Source: Calothrix sp. PCC 7716 | GTDB lineage: Bacteria > Cyanobacteriota > Cyanobacteriia > Cyanobacteriales > Nostocaceae | Reading direction: 5' to 3' | Assembly: GCF_019977735.1 (NCBI RefSeq) | Contig: NZ_AP025018.1 | Location: 1,736,001-1,800,000 of the forward strand | DNA length: 64,000 nucleotides | Shown: positions 13,652 to 59,062 of the stretch, in pieces | Numbering within the stretch: the first letter of the stretch is position 1 | How the letters are laid out: each line of letters begins with the position of its first letter | The notes under the pieces: model-generated | The model's database searches: none | What the model saw: the letters and a program-made list of their open reading frames with translations, nothing else | Told to the model about the DNA's origin: nothing | Translations under genes and position numbers: made by a program

Positions 13652-14098
13652 TTTATGAGGTTTTCGCTTGCAGAAATCTTGATTATTGCTTATGCGTACT
13701 AAATGGTTCGGAGTAATTACTAAAACTTATAAAAAGTAATTTACACAAAGACACCCACCCAATTATAGACCAAACTCAGTAGAAATCATGAGAAGTTCAT
13801 TCTTGTTCGTGGTCAAAGTACCAATAAATAGCGGTGCCTAATCGTTTACCTCTTTTTTCATCACTCTCTTGACAAGCCAGATTTTCCTTTGTATACTTAA
13901 TTTAGTACAATAGAACTAAATTAAGTTGTAAGAAACATAGTTTCAAGGACTTAATGAAGTCGTTTTCAGCATTTTCACCCTACCAAAAATAAGCATTTCA
14001 AGGCTAGCCTAATGTCTGCATGGGTAATGCCTTGGTATGGCTGTGCGTTTGCGAGAATTTTGAATTTCGTATATTTCGTATATTAGGAGTTTGTTTGT
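13652..14098. other. Divergent intergenic region between sphR and the coiled-coil gene
   Basis: No gene is visible. It must carry promoters in both directions and contains the perfect inverted repeat at 13895-13926. AT-rich sequence, and an AGGAG at 14085-14089 serves the downstream gene. Confidence 0.5.
13895..13926. promoter_or_regulatory. Perfect 12-bp inverted repeat, operator-like
   Basis: ACTTAATTTAGT and ACTAAATTAAGT flank an 8-nt spacer, in the divergent promoter region 170-240 bp from the flanking starts. AT-rich dyads of this kind are typical of dimeric regulator sites; a chance hairpin is the alternative. Confidence 0.4.
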
Positions 14099-15070
14099 AT
14101 GGACGTTGCGAATAAAGACGCGAAACGGCAGTTAATGCAAGCTTTTGAGCAAATTATTGCAGAGCGTAAACCAATTGAGTCGAAGATAGCTACAAAGCTC
14201 GAAGTTGCGGAGAAAGCTAAAAATAAACAAATTCTCGAAGCCGCTTCTACATATACTGTTGATAGTATAGTTAAAAGCTTGGCAGATTTACAGCTAGAGT
14301 TTGGTGCCATTGTCAATAGCTTATCTGAGAAGTTAGCAAAAGAGAACTCGAAGCTTGATGAACTCAACCGAGGTATAGAGATTGAAACTACTCTGTTGCA
14401 AGAAATTCAACAAGTAAGAGTCGTTGCAGATGCGGTTGATATTTTGACCCAGGAGCATCAAGAGAAATTGAAAACTCTTGAACAAGATACCCTTCAGAAG
14501 CGTGAAGAATTATCCAAGGAAGCAGCACAAGCTCGTAAAGATTGGCTCAAGGAACAAGCCGAGTTTGATGAAGCGGTACAAGTGTATAATCAACTGCTTT
14601 TCAAACAGCGTCAGCAAGAAACTGAAGACTATCAGTATAAACTCGAAAATACTCGTAAAATTAATACCGACGCATACGAAGCTAAAAAGCGTAACTTAGA
14701 ACGCGAACTAAAAGAAGGCGCCATAACAAGAGAAAAAAATTGGGCAGAACGTGAGATAACCCTGAAAGCAAATCAAACATTGTTGGGTGAATATCAAAAT
14801 ATTGTCACTGCATTTCCAGCAGAATTAGAAGAAGCAGTTAAGAAAGCGCGCGAAGAAGCAATAAAAGATACAAGCCAAAAAGCCAAAGTTGAAGCTGACT
14901 TACTTGAGAAAGAGTGGGAGGGAGCGAAGCAGAGCTACGAACTCAAAGTCAAGTCTCTCGAAGAAACAATCCAAAAACAAGTCGAACAAATCGAAAGTAT
15001 CTCTACCCAACTCCAAACAACGCTCAAACAAGCACAAGATTTGGCAATGCGTGCGTTTAGTAGTAATTAG
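14099..15070 (+). CDS. Coiled-coil protein, first of a paralogous pair
   Basis: A 323-aa, highly charged protein rich in Glu, Lys, Gln and Ala, predicted to be almost entirely alpha-helical coiled coil, without signal peptide or membrane segment. Its N-terminal 50 residues are basic and helical; the last 40 residues (KSLEETIQKQVEQIESISTQ and the following TLKQAQDLAMRAF) align with the C-terminus of the neighbouring gene at 15293. Start supported by AGGAG nine bases upstream. Adjacent coiled-coil-rich paralogues forming cytoplasmic filaments (LfiA/LfiB) have been described in Anabaena; this pair could be their counterpart, but I assign that only from architecture and gene order. Probably a cytoplasmic structural protein. 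Confidence 0.75.
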   Translation: MDVANKDAKRQLMQAFEQIIAERKPIESKIATKLEVAEKAKNKQILEAASTYTVDSIVKSLADLQLEFGAIVNSLSEKLAKENSKLDELNRGIEIETTLLQEIQQVRVVADAVDILTQEHQEKLKTLEQDTLQKREELSKEAAQARKDWLKEQAEFDEAVQVYNQLLFKQRQQETEDYQYKLENTRKINTDAYEAKKRNLERELKEGAITREKNWAEREITLKANQTLLGEYQNIVTAFPAELEEAVKKAREEAIKDTSQKAKVEADLLEKEWEGAKQSYELKVKSLEETIQKQVEQIESISTQLQTTLKQAQDLAMRAFSSN

Positions 15071-15115
15071 CACTTTAGTGCTAGAAAGTACTGGGAAAGT
15101 ACTAAAGTACTTTAT

Positions 15116-15283
15116 TACAACAAAAAAGGAACAACAAAAAAGGAACGACAAAAAAGGAACAACAAAAAAGGAACGACAAAAAAGGAACGACAAAAAAGGA
15201 ACGACAAAAAAGGAACGACAAAAAAGGAACAACAAAAAAGGAACAACAAAAAAGGAACGACAACAAAGGAACAACAAAAAAGG
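15116..15283 (+). repeat. Array of 12 tandem 14-bp repeats containing Shine-Dalgarno cores
   Basis: Twelve contiguous units of consensus AACRACAAAAAAGG, varying mainly at the fourth base (A or G) with one CAACAAAGG variant near 15262. Each junction reads AAAAAAGGAAC, which contains an AAGGA ribosome-binding core. The final unit runs into AAGGAGAATAAAA and directly provides the ribosome binding site for the GTG start at 15293. The period is not a multiple of three, so the array is unlikely to be coding, although frames through it stay open and give Lys/Arg-rich nonsense. Confidence 0.92.
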
Positions 15284-15292
15284 AGAATAAAA

Positions 15293-16396
15293 GTGCCAGC
15301 GAAAAAGCCAACAGATAAAAACACTAAAGCTGAAATCCTCCAAGCATACGAAGAGTTAGCCAAAGAGAAGGCAGCATTAAAAACAGAGCTTGATGCAACC
15401 AAAAGTAGTTCAAATAATAGTACAAATCAGGCGCCTAAAACCACAGTCAAAGAAAAACCAGTAGTAACAGAGAAAACAACTATGAATTCCGGAGCAAGCA
15501 TTCAACAAAAAATGAACTCGACGATTGAAAGCTTGATTAAAATTCAAATGGGGTTTGGAAGTGCTGCGAATGAATTATCTGAACTATTAACAGCAAGAGC
15601 ATTAAAGCTTGCAGAAGTCAAGCAATCTTTTGAACAAGAAGTACAGCAACTCCAAGAACTACATAAGCTAGAAGTAAAAGAGAATACCCTAGATACTCTC
15701 ATCGAAACTTATGAAAATAACTCTAAAACTTACCAAGAAGAGTATTTAAAGCAGTCAGAAACGCTATTACAGCAAATTCAGGAAATGCGAAGTTCTTGGC
15801 AAAAGGAACAAGAAGCGCATAAGTTAGCAATCAAAGAACGTAATGATAATCTTTCTCGAACTCGTCAGCGTGAAGAATCTGGGTATAAATATGACTTAGA
15901 ACTGCAACGCAAACTCGCAATAGACGAGTACGAACAGCAACAAAAAGCTTTATATACTCAGCTAGAGGAATTACAGCAAGAAACCAATAAACAATGGGAA
16001 GCTCGCGAAAAAGGTATTTCTGAGCGTGAGCAACAATTTGAAGAATTAAAAGCGAAAGTCGAAGCTTTACCCAAAGAAAAAGAAGCAGCAATTAAGAAAG
16101 CAACTGAAGAAGGTAAAGGAATTGCATATTACCAAGCCAAAATTAAATCTGACTTGTTAGCAAAAGATGTAGACGGACAAAAGCGCTTCTACGAACAAAG
16201 ACTTCAATCTTTAGAGCAAACTATTTCTAACCAAGACGCGCGCATTCAAAATCTTTCCAGACAGCTTGAATCTGCGTTAAAACAAGTTCAAGATTTGGCA
16301 GTCAAGGCAATAGAAGGTTCTTCGAGTGTAAACTCTTATCAAGCAATGAAAGAAATTGCTTTAGAACAAGCCAAAAGTCAAATGAAAGCTAAATAA
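15293..16396 (+). CDS. Coiled-coil protein, second of a paralogous pair
   Basis: A 367-aa charged protein with a low-complexity Lys/Asn/Ser/Thr N-terminus (about residues 1-65) followed by about 290 residues of continuous predicted coiled coil. Similarity to the gene at 14099 is clearest in the middle (charged runs around RTRQREESGYKYDLELQRK) and near the C-terminus (SLEQTISNQDARIQNLSRQ then ALKQVQDLAVKA). Starts with GTG seven bases after AGGAG, the end of the 14-bp array; no ATG lies nearby. The arrangement suggests the two proteins are made from one transcript and may co-assemble, which is inference. A strong bidirectional terminator follows at 16410. Confidence 0.78.
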   Translation: MPAKKPTDKNTKAEILQAYEELAKEKAALKTELDATKSSSNNSTNQAPKTTVKEKPVVTEKTTMNSGASIQQKMNSTIESLIKIQMGFGSAANELSELLTARALKLAEVKQSFEQEVQQLQELHKLEVKENTLDTLIETYENNSKTYQEEYLKQSETLLQQIQEMRSSWQKEQEAHKLAIKERNDNLSRTRQREESGYKYDLELQRKLAIDEYEQQQKALYTQLEELQQETNKQWEAREKGISEREQQFEELKAKVEALPKEKEAAIKKATEEGKGIAYYQAKIKSDLLAKDVDGQKRFYEQRLQSLEQTISNQDARIQNLSRQLESALKQVQDLAVKAIEGSSSVNSYQAMKEIALEQAKSQMKAK

Positions 16397-16409
16397 TATA
16401 TTGGGTTCA

Positions 16410-16447
16410 GAAACCCGGTTTATCAAATAAACCGGGTTTCTTTTATT
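16410..16447. terminator. Strong hairpin terminator, probably bidirectional
   Basis: AAACCCGGTTTAT and ATAAACCGGGTTT pair as a GC-rich stem followed by CTTTTATT on the plus strand, and preceded by A-rich sequence that gives T-rich DNA on the minus strand. It lies between the convergent coiled-coil gene and the 40-aa peptide gene and belongs to the AAACCCGG dispersed family. Confidence 0.75.
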
Positions 16448-26471: not shown

Positions 26472-26497
26472 ATTGCCTCAATCCCTAAACTAATGAG

Positions 26498-26657
26498 TTG
26501 AAAGTGCTGAGTGCTGAGTGCTGAACTAAGAGTGCTGAGTTAAGAGTGCTGAGTGCTGAGTTAAGAGTTTAAAGTTACTAACTTCTAACTCCTAACTTCT
26601 AACTCCTAACTCCTAATTCTTAACTTACTACTCAGCACTCAGCACTCAGCACTCATT
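26498..26657. repeat. Heptanucleotide tandem repeats (STRR) forming a large inverted structure between rpsB and tsf
   Basis: Left part: repeated AGTGCTG units with AGTTAAG variants. Middle: repeated CTTCTAA / CTCCTAA heptamers. Right part: ACTCAGC units, which are the reverse complement of the left arm. The whole 160-bp spacer can fold as one long imperfect hairpin between the two cotranscribed genes. The same heptamer family occurs at 33106, 36587 and 58984. Confidence 0.9.
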
Positions 26658-26663
26658 ACTCTT

Positions 26664-28909: not shown

Positions 28910-29878
28910 ATGATCGACCACGATGGTTTATTCAAAAAGCTATTAAATAATTTTTTCCCAGAGTTCATAGAGCTATTTTTCCCAGATATTAGTAACTATT
29001 GGCAGCGTAACTCACTCCAATTCTTGCCACAAGAAATAATTACAGATATCATTGATGGTGAAAAGAAGATTGTAGATATATTAGTACAAGCTTTATTTCA
29101 AAATCAGGAAAAGTCATTTATTATACATGTCGAACACCAGTCATATACTAAAAATAACTTTAACCAAAGAAATTTTTTATACTACACGCATTTGTATAAA
29201 GAGTATCGTCTGCCCATATATCCCATCGTTATATACTCCCATGATGCACCATTAACCCAAGAGGCATCTTCTTTTAACATTGACTTTCCTGACTGGGCGC
29301 CTCTTAACTTTAAATACCGAGTTGTACAATTAAATCAATTAGACTGGCAAGATTTTGTTAATATCAGAAATCCAGTTGCTTGTGCTTTGATGTCCAAAAT
29401 GCGAATGGGCGCCGAAGAACGACCAACTGTAAAATTATTATCACTACAATTACTCACTTCGTTGGGACTTAACCCCGCACAAGTTGAGTTAATCTCAGGA
29501 TTTATCGGTACTTACCTTAAACTTAACGCGGCTGAAGAAGCTGAGTTTCAAAGACTAATTGCTACTATAGAACCAAGAAAGCAGGAGGAAGTTATGGAAA
29601 TCGTTACAGATTGGATGGAGCGTGGAATAGAACAGGGAATAGAACAGGGAATAGAACAGGGAATAGAACAGGGAATAGAACAGGGAATAGAACAGGGAAT
29701 GCAACGCGAAGCTGTCTTGTTCGCTCAACGTTTACTTAATCGTCGCTTTGGTAACTTAAGTACTCAGCAACAACAACGAATTCAAAGTCTTTCCACGCAA
29801 AAGTTAGAAGAATTGGGAGAAGCGCTGTTAGATTTTACTTCTGTTGGTGATTTAGATACTTGGTTGAGTCAGTGTTAA
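28910..29878 (+). CDS. Rpn family PD-(D/E)XK nuclease-like protein with DUF4351 tail, distant copy
   Basis: 322 aa, a diverged relative of the genes at 161 and 1593. Asp56, Glu75 and Gln77 of the PD-(D/E)XK-like domain are retained at the same positions (KKIVDILVQ; VEHQSYT). The linker before the DUF4351 tail is a perfect array of six GIEQ units, encoded by identical 12-bp repeats at about 29633-29704, where the other copies have REEG/KELG units. Clearly the same family but not part of the tandem duplication. Function inferred as DNA nuclease or recombination factor. Confidence 0.85.
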   Translation: MIDHDGLFKKLLNNFFPEFIELFFPDISNYWQRNSLQFLPQEIITDIIDGEKKIVDILVQALFQNQEKSFIIHVEHQSYTKNNFNQRNFLYYTHLYKEYRLPIYPIVIYSHDAPLTQEASSFNIDFPDWAPLNFKYRVVQLNQLDWQDFVNIRNPVACALMSKMRMGAEERPTVKLLSLQLLTSLGLNPAQVELISGFIGTYLKLNAAEEAEFQRLIATIEPRKQEEVMEIVTDWMERGIEQGIEQGIEQGIEQGIEQGIEQGMQREAVLFAQRLLNRRFGNLSTQQQQRIQSLSTQKLEELGEALLDFTSVGDLDTWLSQC

Positions 29879-32726: not shown

Positions 32727-33116
32727 ATGAAGCGAATTTTAGTAGTAGATAACGAAGAATATATTCAAGAAGTTACGAAAATTTGCTTAGAAACTGTTGC
32801 AGGTTGGGAAGTAATAACAGCAGGTTCTGGAATGGAATGTGTATCAAAAGCTCTTAGTGAGCTACCTGATGCGATTTTACTCGATGTGATGATGCCCGAT
32901 ATAGACGGTATTGCGACCTTCGAGAAACTTCAAGCAAATTCTGTCACTCAAAATATACCAGTAATATTACTAACAGCAAAAATTCAAGCTAGCGATAGGC
33001 GCCGTTATGCGGAGCAAGGCATAAAAGACGCTATTGCCAAACCTTTCAACCCAACAGAATTAGCAAATCAAGTTTCGGCTATTTTAGGTTGGAAAGAAAT
33101 AAGTAATGAGTGCTGA
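32727..33116 (+). CDS. Stand-alone response regulator (REC only)
   Basis: About 129 aa, consisting of a single receiver domain: acidic pocket VDNEE near residues 7-11, phospho-acceptor Asp53 in ILLDVMMPDIDG, Thr in LLTAKIQ and Lys in AIAKPFN. No output domain, so it acts through protein contacts or as a phosphate relay. The ATG at 32727 is preferred to the GTG two codons upstream. It follows the hybrid kinase at 30669 closely and is probably its partner in a phosphorelay; this is inferred from order. Confidence 0.88.
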   Translation: MKRILVVDNEEYIQEVTKICLETVAGWEVITAGSGMECVSKALSELPDAILLDVMMPDIDGIATFEKLQANSVTQNIPVILLTAKIQASDRRRYAEQGIKDAIAKPFNPTELANQVSAILGWKEISNEC

Positions 33117-33195
33117 GTGCTGAGTGCTGAGTGCTGAGTGCTGAGGAGCCATCGCCGTGGGCGGCTGCCGACTTGAGGCGAATGGCGTTGCTGAG
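33106..33195. repeat. Heptamer array with embedded GC-rich hairpin
   Basis: AGTGCTG heptamers (33106-33144) overlap the end of the receiver gene and lead into a hairpin with GCCATCGCC and GGCGAATGGC arms. A CAACGGATGTAACGGAT motif like the foldback at 6331 follows near 33257. No gene is supported between 33117 and 33344. Confidence 0.8.
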
Positions 33196-36586: not shown

Positions 36587-36690
36587 AGTGCTGAGTGCTG
36601 AGTTCTGAGTAAAGAAGTTCAAAGCACTCAGCACTCATTACTCAGCACTCATTACTCAGCACTCAGCACTCATTACTCAGCACTCATTAC
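36587..36690. repeat. Heptamer STRR array between ppsA and PMT-family gene
   Basis: Starts with AGTGCTG units, then switches to the reverse complement as CACTCAGC and CACTCATTACTC units up to ten bases before the next start codon. Inverted halves can fold as a hairpin, as at 26498. Confidence 0.88.
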
Positions 36691-36699
36691 TTCTAACTC

Positions 36700-38223
36700 A
36701 TGAGTAAAAAATGGTTTCAAATAGGTTTGGTGAGTGTGTTTTTGCTATCACTCGCTTTACGGTTTTGGGGACTCGGAAGATTCAATACGCTTGTATTTGA
36801 TGAGGTTTACTACGCGAAGTTTGGTAATGATTATCTGATAGGTGTGCCGTTCTTCGATGGTCATCCGCCATTTGGTAAGTTAGTTATTGCTTTGGGTATT
36901 TGGATTGGTAAACATGTACCTTGGTGGCAAAGTGAAGTTAATGGTTTAGCGGGGTCGTTAATGTCTCCGCTTGCTTACCGTTGGATGAATGCTTTTACTG
37001 GTTCGTTTATTCCTTTACTTACTGCTGGTATCGCTTATCAACTTAGTCACCGTCGCAGTTTTGGTTTAATTGCTGGGTTATTTACCGCATTGGACGGTAT
37101 TTTTATTGTCGAAGCACGTTACGCTTTGATTAATCAATATATAGTTATCTGCGGTTTACTGGGTCATTTTTTGTTGCTTTTAGCACTTAATAAGAAAAAT
37201 CAACGGCGCCCCCCTGAACGTTTACTATATTTAGCATTAGCAGGTATAGCTTTTGGCACCTCAATTGCGACTAAATGGAATGGTTTATGGTACCTTTTGG
37301 GCGCCTATACTATGTGGGTTATCGCTTGGGGATTTGAGATATTACGCTCTAAAACAAGCAATAGCGAGACAGATGCAGAATATGCACATAAATTTAGCAA
37401 TAAAGCCTTTGGTAGTCAGACTGCAACTAAATATAGAGCAAAAGTTCTGCAAATATCTCCACTTCAAAACTTGACGCAGTTAAATCTTTTTCACGTTGGC
37501 ATATATTTGGGAATTATTCCCGTTATTATTTACAGTGTTATTTGGATTCCCCATTTATTACTTGACACCAAATACAACTTTATTGAGGTTCACAAACAAA
37601 TCTTAGGGTTCCACGGACGTATGGGTGGCAACAACGTGTCGGTTCACCCGTACTGTGCAGCTTGGTATAAGTGGCCACTTATGACTCGACCGATGGCGTA
37701 TTATTATCAGACTACCCAAAGTTTTCAAGACCCTTTACCTGTGTTTGGCCCACCGTTACCACAAGGTGCAGGCAAAGTTATTTATGATGTTCACGCAATG
37801 GGGAATCCGTTTTTGTGGTGGTTTGGGTTAGCGGCAATTATACTTTTATTTGGGATGCTTGTTTGGAAATTAGTGGCGCCTTCGTTACAAAAACAGCGCT
37901 TAGTAGTACCACAGCTAACTACCGATATTTGGATTGGTTTATACTTAGTAGTAAATTATTTAGTTAATTTAATGCCGTGGGTAAAGGTAACACGGTGTTT
38001 GTTTATTTACCACTATATGACGGGGGTAGTGTTTGCTTTTATGGCAATAGCTTGGGTTGTAGACCAATTACTTCGCAGTTATATAGCTACCCTGCGCGCG
38101 TTAGGTGTAACTATAACATTTGTAATTATCGGGGCTTTTATATTCTGGTTGCCATTATATCTAGGTTTACCACTCACGTCAGAAGCGTACAAATTACGAA
38201 TGTGGTTTAATTCCTGGATTTAA
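36700..38223 (+). CDS. PMT-family membrane glycosyltransferase
   Basis: 507 aa with about ten hydrophobic segments. The N-terminal region has the lumenal/periplasmic loop motif FDEVYYAKFGNDYL (acidic pair characteristic of GT39 protein-mannosyltransferase/phospholipid-carrier dependent enzymes) after a first membrane helix, and later FDGHPPFGKL and TKWNGLWYLLGAY. Family enzymes transfer sugars from a polyprenyl-phosphate carrier to acceptors on the outer face of the inner membrane. Acceptor unknown. The start ATG is immediately after the heptamer array and no classical ribosome binding site is visible. Confidence 0.88.
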   Translation: MSKKWFQIGLVSVFLLSLALRFWGLGRFNTLVFDEVYYAKFGNDYLIGVPFFDGHPPFGKLVIALGIWIGKHVPWWQSEVNGLAGSLMSPLAYRWMNAFTGSFIPLLTAGIAYQLSHRRSFGLIAGLFTALDGIFIVEARYALINQYIVICGLLGHFLLLLALNKKNQRRPPERLLYLALAGIAFGTSIATKWNGLWYLLGAYTMWVIAWGFEILRSKTSNSETDAEYAHKFSNKAFGSQTATKYRAKVLQISPLQNLTQLNLFHVGIYLGIIPVIIYSVIWIPHLLLDTKYNFIEVHKQILGFHGRMGGNNVSVHPYCAAWYKWPLMTRPMAYYYQTTQSFQDPLPVFGPPLPQGAGKVIYDVHAMGNPFLWWFGLAAIILLFGMLVWKLVAPSLQKQRLVVPQLTTDIWIGLYLVVNYLVNLMPWVKVTRCLFIYHYMTGVVFAFMAIAWVVDQLLRSYIATLRALGVTITFVIIGAFIFWLPLYLGLPLTSEAYKLRMWFNSWI

Positions 38224-56277: not shown

Positions 56278-56470
56278 ACAGTATATTTTACATCCATGCC
56301 TCTATTTATACTGTAGAACAAATCGCACAAAATAAATGTTGCAAACCCTTACATACTATAGCTTAGATATTTCTTTAGCCGCTATATTATACTTAAGTTT
56401 ATTGCGAGTTCTTATCATTTTATATTTATTTATATTTAAATACGGCTTATTAAGTAAGTTGTTACGCACA

Positions 56471-56685
56471 GAAACCGGGTTTCTTGTTGATGTATAGTGA
56501 TGAAAACGAGATTTTTCATAGAAACCCGGTTTCTTGTTGATGTATAGTAATGAAAACGAGATTTTTCATAGAAACCCGGTTTCTTGTTGATGTATAGTGA
56601 TGAAAACGAGATTTTTCATAGAAACCCGGTTTCTTGTTGATGTATAGTGATGAAAACGAGATTTTTCATAGAAACCCGGTTTCTT
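56471..56685. repeat. Tandem 50-bp repeats with AAACCCGG hairpin arms
   Basis: Four consecutive 50-bp units plus a partial fifth. Each contains GAAACCCGGTTTCTTGTTGA and TGAAAACGAGATTTTTCATA. The first unit has the arm in GAAACCGGGT form and the others GAAACCCGGT. Units differ at single bases (GTGATG versus GTAATG). Lies immediately before the start of the gene at 56704; the 56278-56470 part shows no gene. Confidence 0.92.
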
Positions 56686-58983: not shown

Positions 58984-59062
58984 ATAGCACTCAGCACTCA
59001 GAACTCAGCACTCAGAACTCAGCACTCAGCACTCAGAACTCAGCACTCAGAACTCAGAACTT
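58984..59062. repeat. Heptamer STRR array between DUF751 and rbfA
   Basis: About eleven ACTCAGC / ACTCAGA heptamers in tandem in the short spacer of the DUF751-rbfA pair. Same family as at 26498, but all one orientation. Confidence 0.9.

Follow-up and report, generated by a model that had tools for sequence, protein, structure and literature searches.

A twelve-copy tandem array of Shine-Dalgarno motifs before a paralogous gene of Calothrix sp. PCC 7716, probably grown from that gene's own ribosome-binding site

We find that the start codon of one gene in Calothrix sp. PCC 7716 is preceded by twelve head-to-tail copies of a 14-bp unit, each containing the Shine-Dalgarno (SD)-like core AAAGGA. 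In all likelihood this array is an expanding repeat, one that may help to leave the start accessible, and not an established switch. The array lies at 15117-15284 on the forward strand of the window (the whole 64,000-nucleotide stretch of DNA that was analysed, part of a 12.4-Mb genome). Our preferred reading, to which we assign a probability of roughly 0.58, is that of a minisatellite derived from the downstream gene's own ribosome-binding site (RBS): tandem duplication of that site would have generated the repeat, only the start-proximal copy would initiate translation, and the upstream copies, T-free and hardly folding, would do no more than provide an unstructured strip for ribosomes to land on (standby), keeping the start region away from a hairpin behind the preceding gene. 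The effect of such a strip would be small and would saturate after a few copies, leaving copy number to drift more or less freely. A regulatory role of the array is unproven.

TRF reported the array with a period of 14, 12.0 copies, 94% matches and a score of 287, compared with a top score of 62 among 20 dinucleotide shuffles of the window, confirming the twelve tandem units of the original prediction (which had set the array off by one base, at 15116-15283). The unit is ACRACAAAAAAGGA, one of the twelve bearing an additional change, and the variants are ACAACAAAAAAGGA (six copies), ACGACAAAAAAGGA (five copies) and ACGACAACAAAGGA (one copy). AAGGA had been claimed for every unit, and indeed the longer AAAGGA is present in 12 of 12, with only two positions varying among units and with the two halves of the 14-bp unit dissimilar; selection could also explain this unmutated core, though with just two variable positions. 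Base content is A 113, G 30, C 25 and T 0, so that no start or stop codon occurs inside the array on the forward strand. The array ends a few nucleotides before the start codon in the sense direction, as do other start-proximal tandem repeats (e.g., TAACTGA): 8 nt separate the end of the last AAAGGA, at 15284, from the GTG at 15293, the next copy up being 22 nt away, and the earlier statement that only the last unit is correctly spaced thus holds. Together with the following G, this last unit (15271-15284, forward strand) yields AAGGAG, the presumed working SD on account of its spacing, its pairing energy and its being the sole SD of the same core in two relatives.

Neither the pair of units nor a period-14 pattern of AAAGGA turned up anywhere else in exact-match searches of the whole genome, and no complementary stretch of at least 8 nt to the array was found within about 150 nt on either side. 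We considered and rejected several further readings of the array. A genome-wide class defined by three close AAGGA motifs gave 27 matches, 10 of them the array itself, vs. 35 for the reversed control; the sole Rfam match up to an E-value of 1 was a miRNA model scoring far below its gathering score; and bending of the DNA by phased A-tracts would, by our own reasoning, cancel, because a period of 14 bp does not make a whole number of helical turns and each tract is rotated by about 120 degrees from the one before.

The array separates gene A (14099-15070, forward strand, 323 aa, ATG start) from gene B (15293-16396, forward strand, 367 aa, GTG start, with matches in 129 of 192 genomes of the family, a few of these weak). 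The two proteins are paralogous (BLASTP, 32% identity over 333 aa, E = 1e-42), as had been proposed. The coiled-coil label given to them fared less evenly: a few database names agree with it, most names read "hypothetical protein", and no Pfam or NCBIfam family reached cut-off in a search of the gene products. The GTG start at 15293 is supported by the same codon being GTG in five relatives (L004-L008) and ATG in two others (L009 and L010).

Both genes are predicted to form a two-gene operon in which the array is co-transcribed. A putative operon promoter, TTGACA-17-TATACT, lies at 13869-13897 on the forward strand with 11 of 12 consensus matches; promoter-like matches in the scan numbered 4, compared with 5.2 in shuffles, i.e., at chance level. 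The TTGACA and TATACT hexamers, with varying bases between them, stand 1.2-1.4 kb ahead of gene B not only in the window but also in 5 of 5 same-genus relatives (L004-L008), and among the two more distant loci a similar match is present in L010 and none in L009. The promoter evidence, as far as comparison goes, points upstream of gene A. An intrinsic-terminator-like hairpin (16409-16441, forward strand), with a 15-pair stem followed by TTTATT, would close the operon, and the same scan detected no terminator-like site between genes A and B on the forward strand. The 222-bp spacer between the genes contains an inverted-repeat stretch (GCACTTTAGTGC; AAAGTACT...AGTACTTT; 15065-15115, forward strand), which appears as a stem in the RNA fold, followed by the array. 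The exact double motif of this stretch occurs once in the genome, and its length differs among relatives. The palindromic AAAGTACT stretch also looks unstable in its own right, with an 18-bp version present about three times in the spacer of PCC 7103, and the genome has a second site (L002) that resembles 15096-15130, at 91% across 32 bp.

Comparison among relatives speaks for growth of the array at this site. The closest relative among those compared, Dulcicalothrix desertica PCC 7102 (L004), with 97% identity in gene B, has five units in its spacer, two of them 13 bp long (one A shorter). In Calothrix HK-06 (L006) and PCC 7103 (L008), the GTG is preceded by one ACAAAAAAGGAG, reading ttattacaaaaaaggaga up to that codon, which equals one unit core and is the only SD of that core there, and FI2-JRJ7 (L005) and NIES-4105 (L007) carry a lone SD of another sequence. 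Unit counts within the genus are therefore 12, 5, 1 or none, differing between species; copy number is not invariant, and the variation between relatives anticipated by the original prediction is supported. Because a single SD of the same core, five units and twelve units all occur among relatives, we infer that the array grew from gene B's own SD, an origin that these comparisons make well supported. A gene B tree built from eight rows pairs the window with PCC 7102 at a support of 96/95 (the branching among L005, L006 and L008 is not settled), which places array growth most simply on their shared branch. Moreover, the ACGAC variant is found in 6 of the 12 window units and in none of those of PCC 7102, so duplication continued after the two split. 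The same counts bear on a coding use of the array, which is crossed by an open reading frame at 14889-15290: both the 0, 1 and 5 units of relatives and the unit length of 14 bp, which changes the reading frame, speak against it.

A further copy-number difference comes from a protein record (P0001) that is identical to gene B over all 367 aa but begins upstream of the array. Of all unit numbers from 1 to 12, only five agrees with the length of its 39 extra codons, and its spacer has, as penultimate unit, the odd variant also seen in the window, suggesting a copy-number difference between near-identical genes, unless assembly collapsed the array. With five units, the frame from a GTG at 15078 enters gene B to give this 406-aa record, whose N-terminal extension is probably spurious, making repeat number at the array a trap for gene calling. 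Differences of this kind might also mark a contingency (tuning) locus, in which frequent copy-number change is selected for varying gene B expression among cells or strains. The 12, 5, 1 and 0 units within one genus, the five in P0001 and the occurrence of both 13-bp and 14-bp units would suit such a locus; by our reasoning, however, frameshift cannot turn the gene off when the units are not part of the reading frame, and we consider this reading very improbable.

We next set the array against orthologous spacers across the family. From 97 gene B loci, 79 usable spacers with a located gene A-like upstream neighbour were obtained (76 distinct), after dropping 18 loci (13 lying in the opposite orientation, 4 in which gene A had no match of its own and 1 with an implausible spacer); in 16 of the 79, extrapolation put the start at a codon that is not ATG, GTG or TTG, and the ends of these spacers may be a few codons off. 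Counting AAGGA, AGGAG or GGAGG as an SD-like site, the distinct spacers had none in 29 cases, one in 45, two in one and five in one (PCC 7102). Put differently, 78 of 79 measured spacers have at most two SD-like sites, and inner copies occur in PCC 7102 only. This distribution weighs against the possibility that the array is an mRNA stabiliser, whose purine-rich SD copies would hold 30S subunits or S1 and thereby protect the gene B half of the message or fix processing behind the hairpin. A hairpin and a purine-rich strip do stand between the two cistrons, and a similar role in transcript stability or translational coupling has been proposed for tandem repeats such as the STRR in the hupS-hupL spacer (PMC2670836), but with the array missing in 78 of 79 measured orthologous spacers we find this reading quite improbable.

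Pairing and folding predictions bear more directly on how the copies may act. Four 16S-like ends read in the genome finish in GGATCACCTCCTTT, and the array motif matches the host ribosome. By computation, the last unit pairs with the 16S tail at -8.9 kcal/mol and the inner units at -5.8 kcal/mol; lacking T and hence any start codon, an inner unit cannot by itself initiate translation. Folding predictions leave the array almost free of pairing (mean unpaired probability 0.93), and the centroid structure has it fully open; in the minimum-energy fold its first two bases are paired and a weak 4-pair helix joins 15254-15258 to the start codon. In shortened versions of the window spacer, the predicted cost of opening the start region was 5.8, 4.7 and 3.8 kcal/mol for 1, 2 and 3 units and 4.2, 4.2 and 3.4 kcal/mol for 5, 8 and 12 units, a fall that is not quite steady and from which most of the predicted gain in accessibility would come with the first two or three copies. 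Natural spacers are not ordered by copy number alone, with predicted costs of 3.4 kcal/mol for 12 units, 5.7 for 5 units (PCC 7102), 6.2 and 3.8 (PCC 7103) for 1 unit, and 6.7 and 7.9 for none. With regard to possible sequestration of the RBS, predicted costs across sequence contexts were 3.0-4.9 kcal/mol in the window and 3.7-4.3 kcal/mol in one-unit PCC 7103. The pairing energies, the absence of start codons and the early-saturating opening cost lead us to prefer the view that one SD does the work and that the strip upstream of it is tolerated and of mild help.

The originally suggested roles in tuning ribosome loading and setting the stoichiometry of the two genes, and the stacking of ribosomes over the array, find no support in these results. 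Several points weigh against a role in dosage: inner copies are weaker SDs, have no start codon and occur in only 1 of 79 spacers (PCC 7102), and the predicted accessibility gain comes mostly from the first two or three copies. One form of such a role would be an antenna, in which inner SDs bind 30S subunits that slide or hop to the last SD, such that copy number sets the output of gene B relative to gene A. All copies match the anti-SD of the genome, the strip is predicted to be almost unpaired, and the two products are paralogues that may polymerise together. Published work on ribosome standby is relevant here, with the likeness that an unstructured stretch upstream of the SD is usable by ribosomes, and the array presents such a single-stranded stretch upstream of the RBS in its predicted fold. 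The host in the study of standby-module leaders was reportedly E. coli. Leaders with two to four standby modules had the same translation rate, i.e., no cooperativity (PMC3936740). Standby sites need no SD motifs, whereas the array repeats the SD itself, and no strong structure is predicted to lock the start here. Given these data, the weakness of the inner SDs and the 78 of 79 orthologous spacers that manage with at most two SD-like sites, we consider the antenna unlikely, and the survey described below adds a point on each side.

To place the array in a wider context, we searched 192 genomes of the window's family, which we take to be GTDB's Nostocaceae, for AAAGGA occurring three times at a 14-nt step, and found it in 54 of 192, compared with 16 of 192 for the reversed motif. 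Among the matches listed, AAAGGA arrays are mainly heptamers, combining AAAGGAC with AAATGAC, AACTGAC or AAATAAC. From these matches we took 96 AAAGGA loci, leaving out the target and its PCC 7102 counterpart, and dropped 2 near-duplicates (94 retained); as controls, 33 reversed-motif loci were reduced by 14 duplicates to 19, and 50 AACTGAC loci by 1 to 49. Scoring the distance from the last AAAGGA to an ATG or GTG that opens a frame of at least 100 aa, we found a sense start 3-14 nt away in 43 of 94 AAAGGA arrays, most commonly at 9 or 10 nt, compared with antisense starts in 0 of 94 and with 0 of 19 reversed-motif arrays; within 3-30 nt, the counts were 51 of 94 sense and 3 of 94 antisense. 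The genes behind these starts belong to 25 protein families (43 loci, 3-14 nt) or 28 (51 loci, 3-30 nt). Pfam named 19 of the 20 family representatives submitted out of the 28, and those with a start at 3-14 nt include ribosomal proteins L4, L6, L13 and L16, EF-Tu, ATP synthase epsilon, a phycobilisome linker and NifU.

The proportion of AAAGGA arrays ending at the SD place (43 of 94) favours the antenna, and the SD-less AACTGAC arrays, which are likewise sense-oriented (8 of 49 at 3-14 nt and 19 of 49 at 0-30 nt, antisense 0 of 49), speak against it. The two kinds of array differ in ending at SD distance (43 of 94 vs. 8 of 49, p = 0.0005) and not significantly in nearness to starts over the wider range (51 of 94 at 3-30 nt for AAAGGA, p = 0.11), both p-values being optimistic because arrays in related genomes are not independent. 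The AACTGAC control thus tempers an SD-specific reading of the survey. Similarly, among 60 hand-picked arrays, the 13 built on AAGGAG (L155-L167) had no sense start within 3-25 nt and an antisense start in two cases. We regard as decidedly unlikely the broader proposal that SD copies act as an antenna whose length is an evolvable translation dial for one paralogue, with the same device used family-wide at core genes.

Before rplF, in the 30 best-matching of 190 genomes with a match, AAAGGA occurs within 110 nt in 0, 1, 2, 3, 4 and 5 copies in 2, 5, 5, 10, 5 and 3 genomes, respectively, and 28 of these 30 retain the copy nearest the start (counted by eye). The sequences suggest the same pattern as for the gene B array, with the last copy constant and the others free. 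At L192, L197, L241, L274, L288, L289, L293, L295 (rplF) and other loci, AAAGGA heptamer arrays end at the SD position of core genes, a situation found in many genomes of the family, between which copy number varies.

Heptamer arrays with AAAGGA every 7 or 14 nt are frequent elsewhere in the family, which raises the possibility that a dispersed heptamer (STRR) copy landed at this locus, instead of local growth of an SD. The unit, however, is not a heptamer pair of the STRR family, it occurs at this locus only in the genome (exact matches), and a single-unit core stands at the same spot in relatives; we consider this origin mostly refuted and extremely unlikely. The array resembles STRRs in being an intergenic tandem repeat of a filamentous cyanobacterium (PMC2670836). 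It differs from them in that STRRs usually have a 7-bp unit and many dispersed copies and the one described can form a hairpin, whereas the array has a period of 14, one locus by exact matches and no complementary stretch of at least 8 nt within about 150 nt.

A closer likeness in position is to the TAACTGA heptamers found directly before start codons in Beggiatoaceae and some cyanobacteria (MacGregor 2015, PMC4679880). TAACTGA differences between two Cyanothece strains are mostly in 7-nt steps, i.e., whole units, about 10% of repeat-bearing regions in the BOGUAY genome also have an SD, and the orientation of these repeats is likewise not universal, only 6 of 22 intergenic sets in a Microcystis sample having faced a downstream start (PMC4679880). 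Both are tandem repeats directly upstream of starts, but TAACTGA is a 7-bp SD-less unit present in many sets, and the gene B array is a single one whose 14-bp unit is the SD itself. The array thus differs from start-proximal heptamers and STRRs in unit length, in its single locus and in repeating the SD, and no paper on tandem SD arrays was among the matches listed in open-licence PubMed Central.

For genes A and B themselves, a comparison can be drawn with ZicK and ZacK, which we take to be Alr4504 and Alr4505, encoded by neighbouring genes. Those genes are paralogous neighbours in one operon. ZicK and ZacK are coiled-coil-rich Anabaena proteins that are interdependent and reported to form heteropolymers (PMC7766704), and the alr4504 and alr4505 products are treated as partners in a proteomic paper (PMC8147232). 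Genes A and B resemble them by description, as paralogous neighbours in a predicted operon, and the database names from the protein search do not identify either product as ZicK or ZacK. If the likeness is true, the stoichiometry of A and B might be a sensible target for tuning, and if the antenna reading is true, cyanobacteria would have in tandem duplication an inexpensive means of altering protein dose. The 0, 1, 5 and 12 copies of an RBS before the same gene form a natural series that makes testable an old question, namely whether extra upstream SDs help, hinder or do nothing.

Beyond the family, a gene B relative at 38% identity (L075) lies on a contig labelled Cytophagales, a non-cyanobacterial assignment that may reflect transfer or binning error. 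Other tandem repeats also occur in the window, such as 12-bp repeats at 887-975, 2331-2382 and 29624-29700 (the last with 6.4 copies and 100% matches) that are perhaps coding, as their period is a multiple of three, and heptamer arrays of other sequence (e.g., AGTGCTG, CTAACTT and AGCACTC) at 26494-26661, 33107-33145, 36623-36700 and 58986-59061. Finally, the terminator-like hairpin at 16409-16441 has AGAAACCCGGTTT in common with a 50-bp repeat unit at 56470-56685 (4.3 copies, 98% matches).
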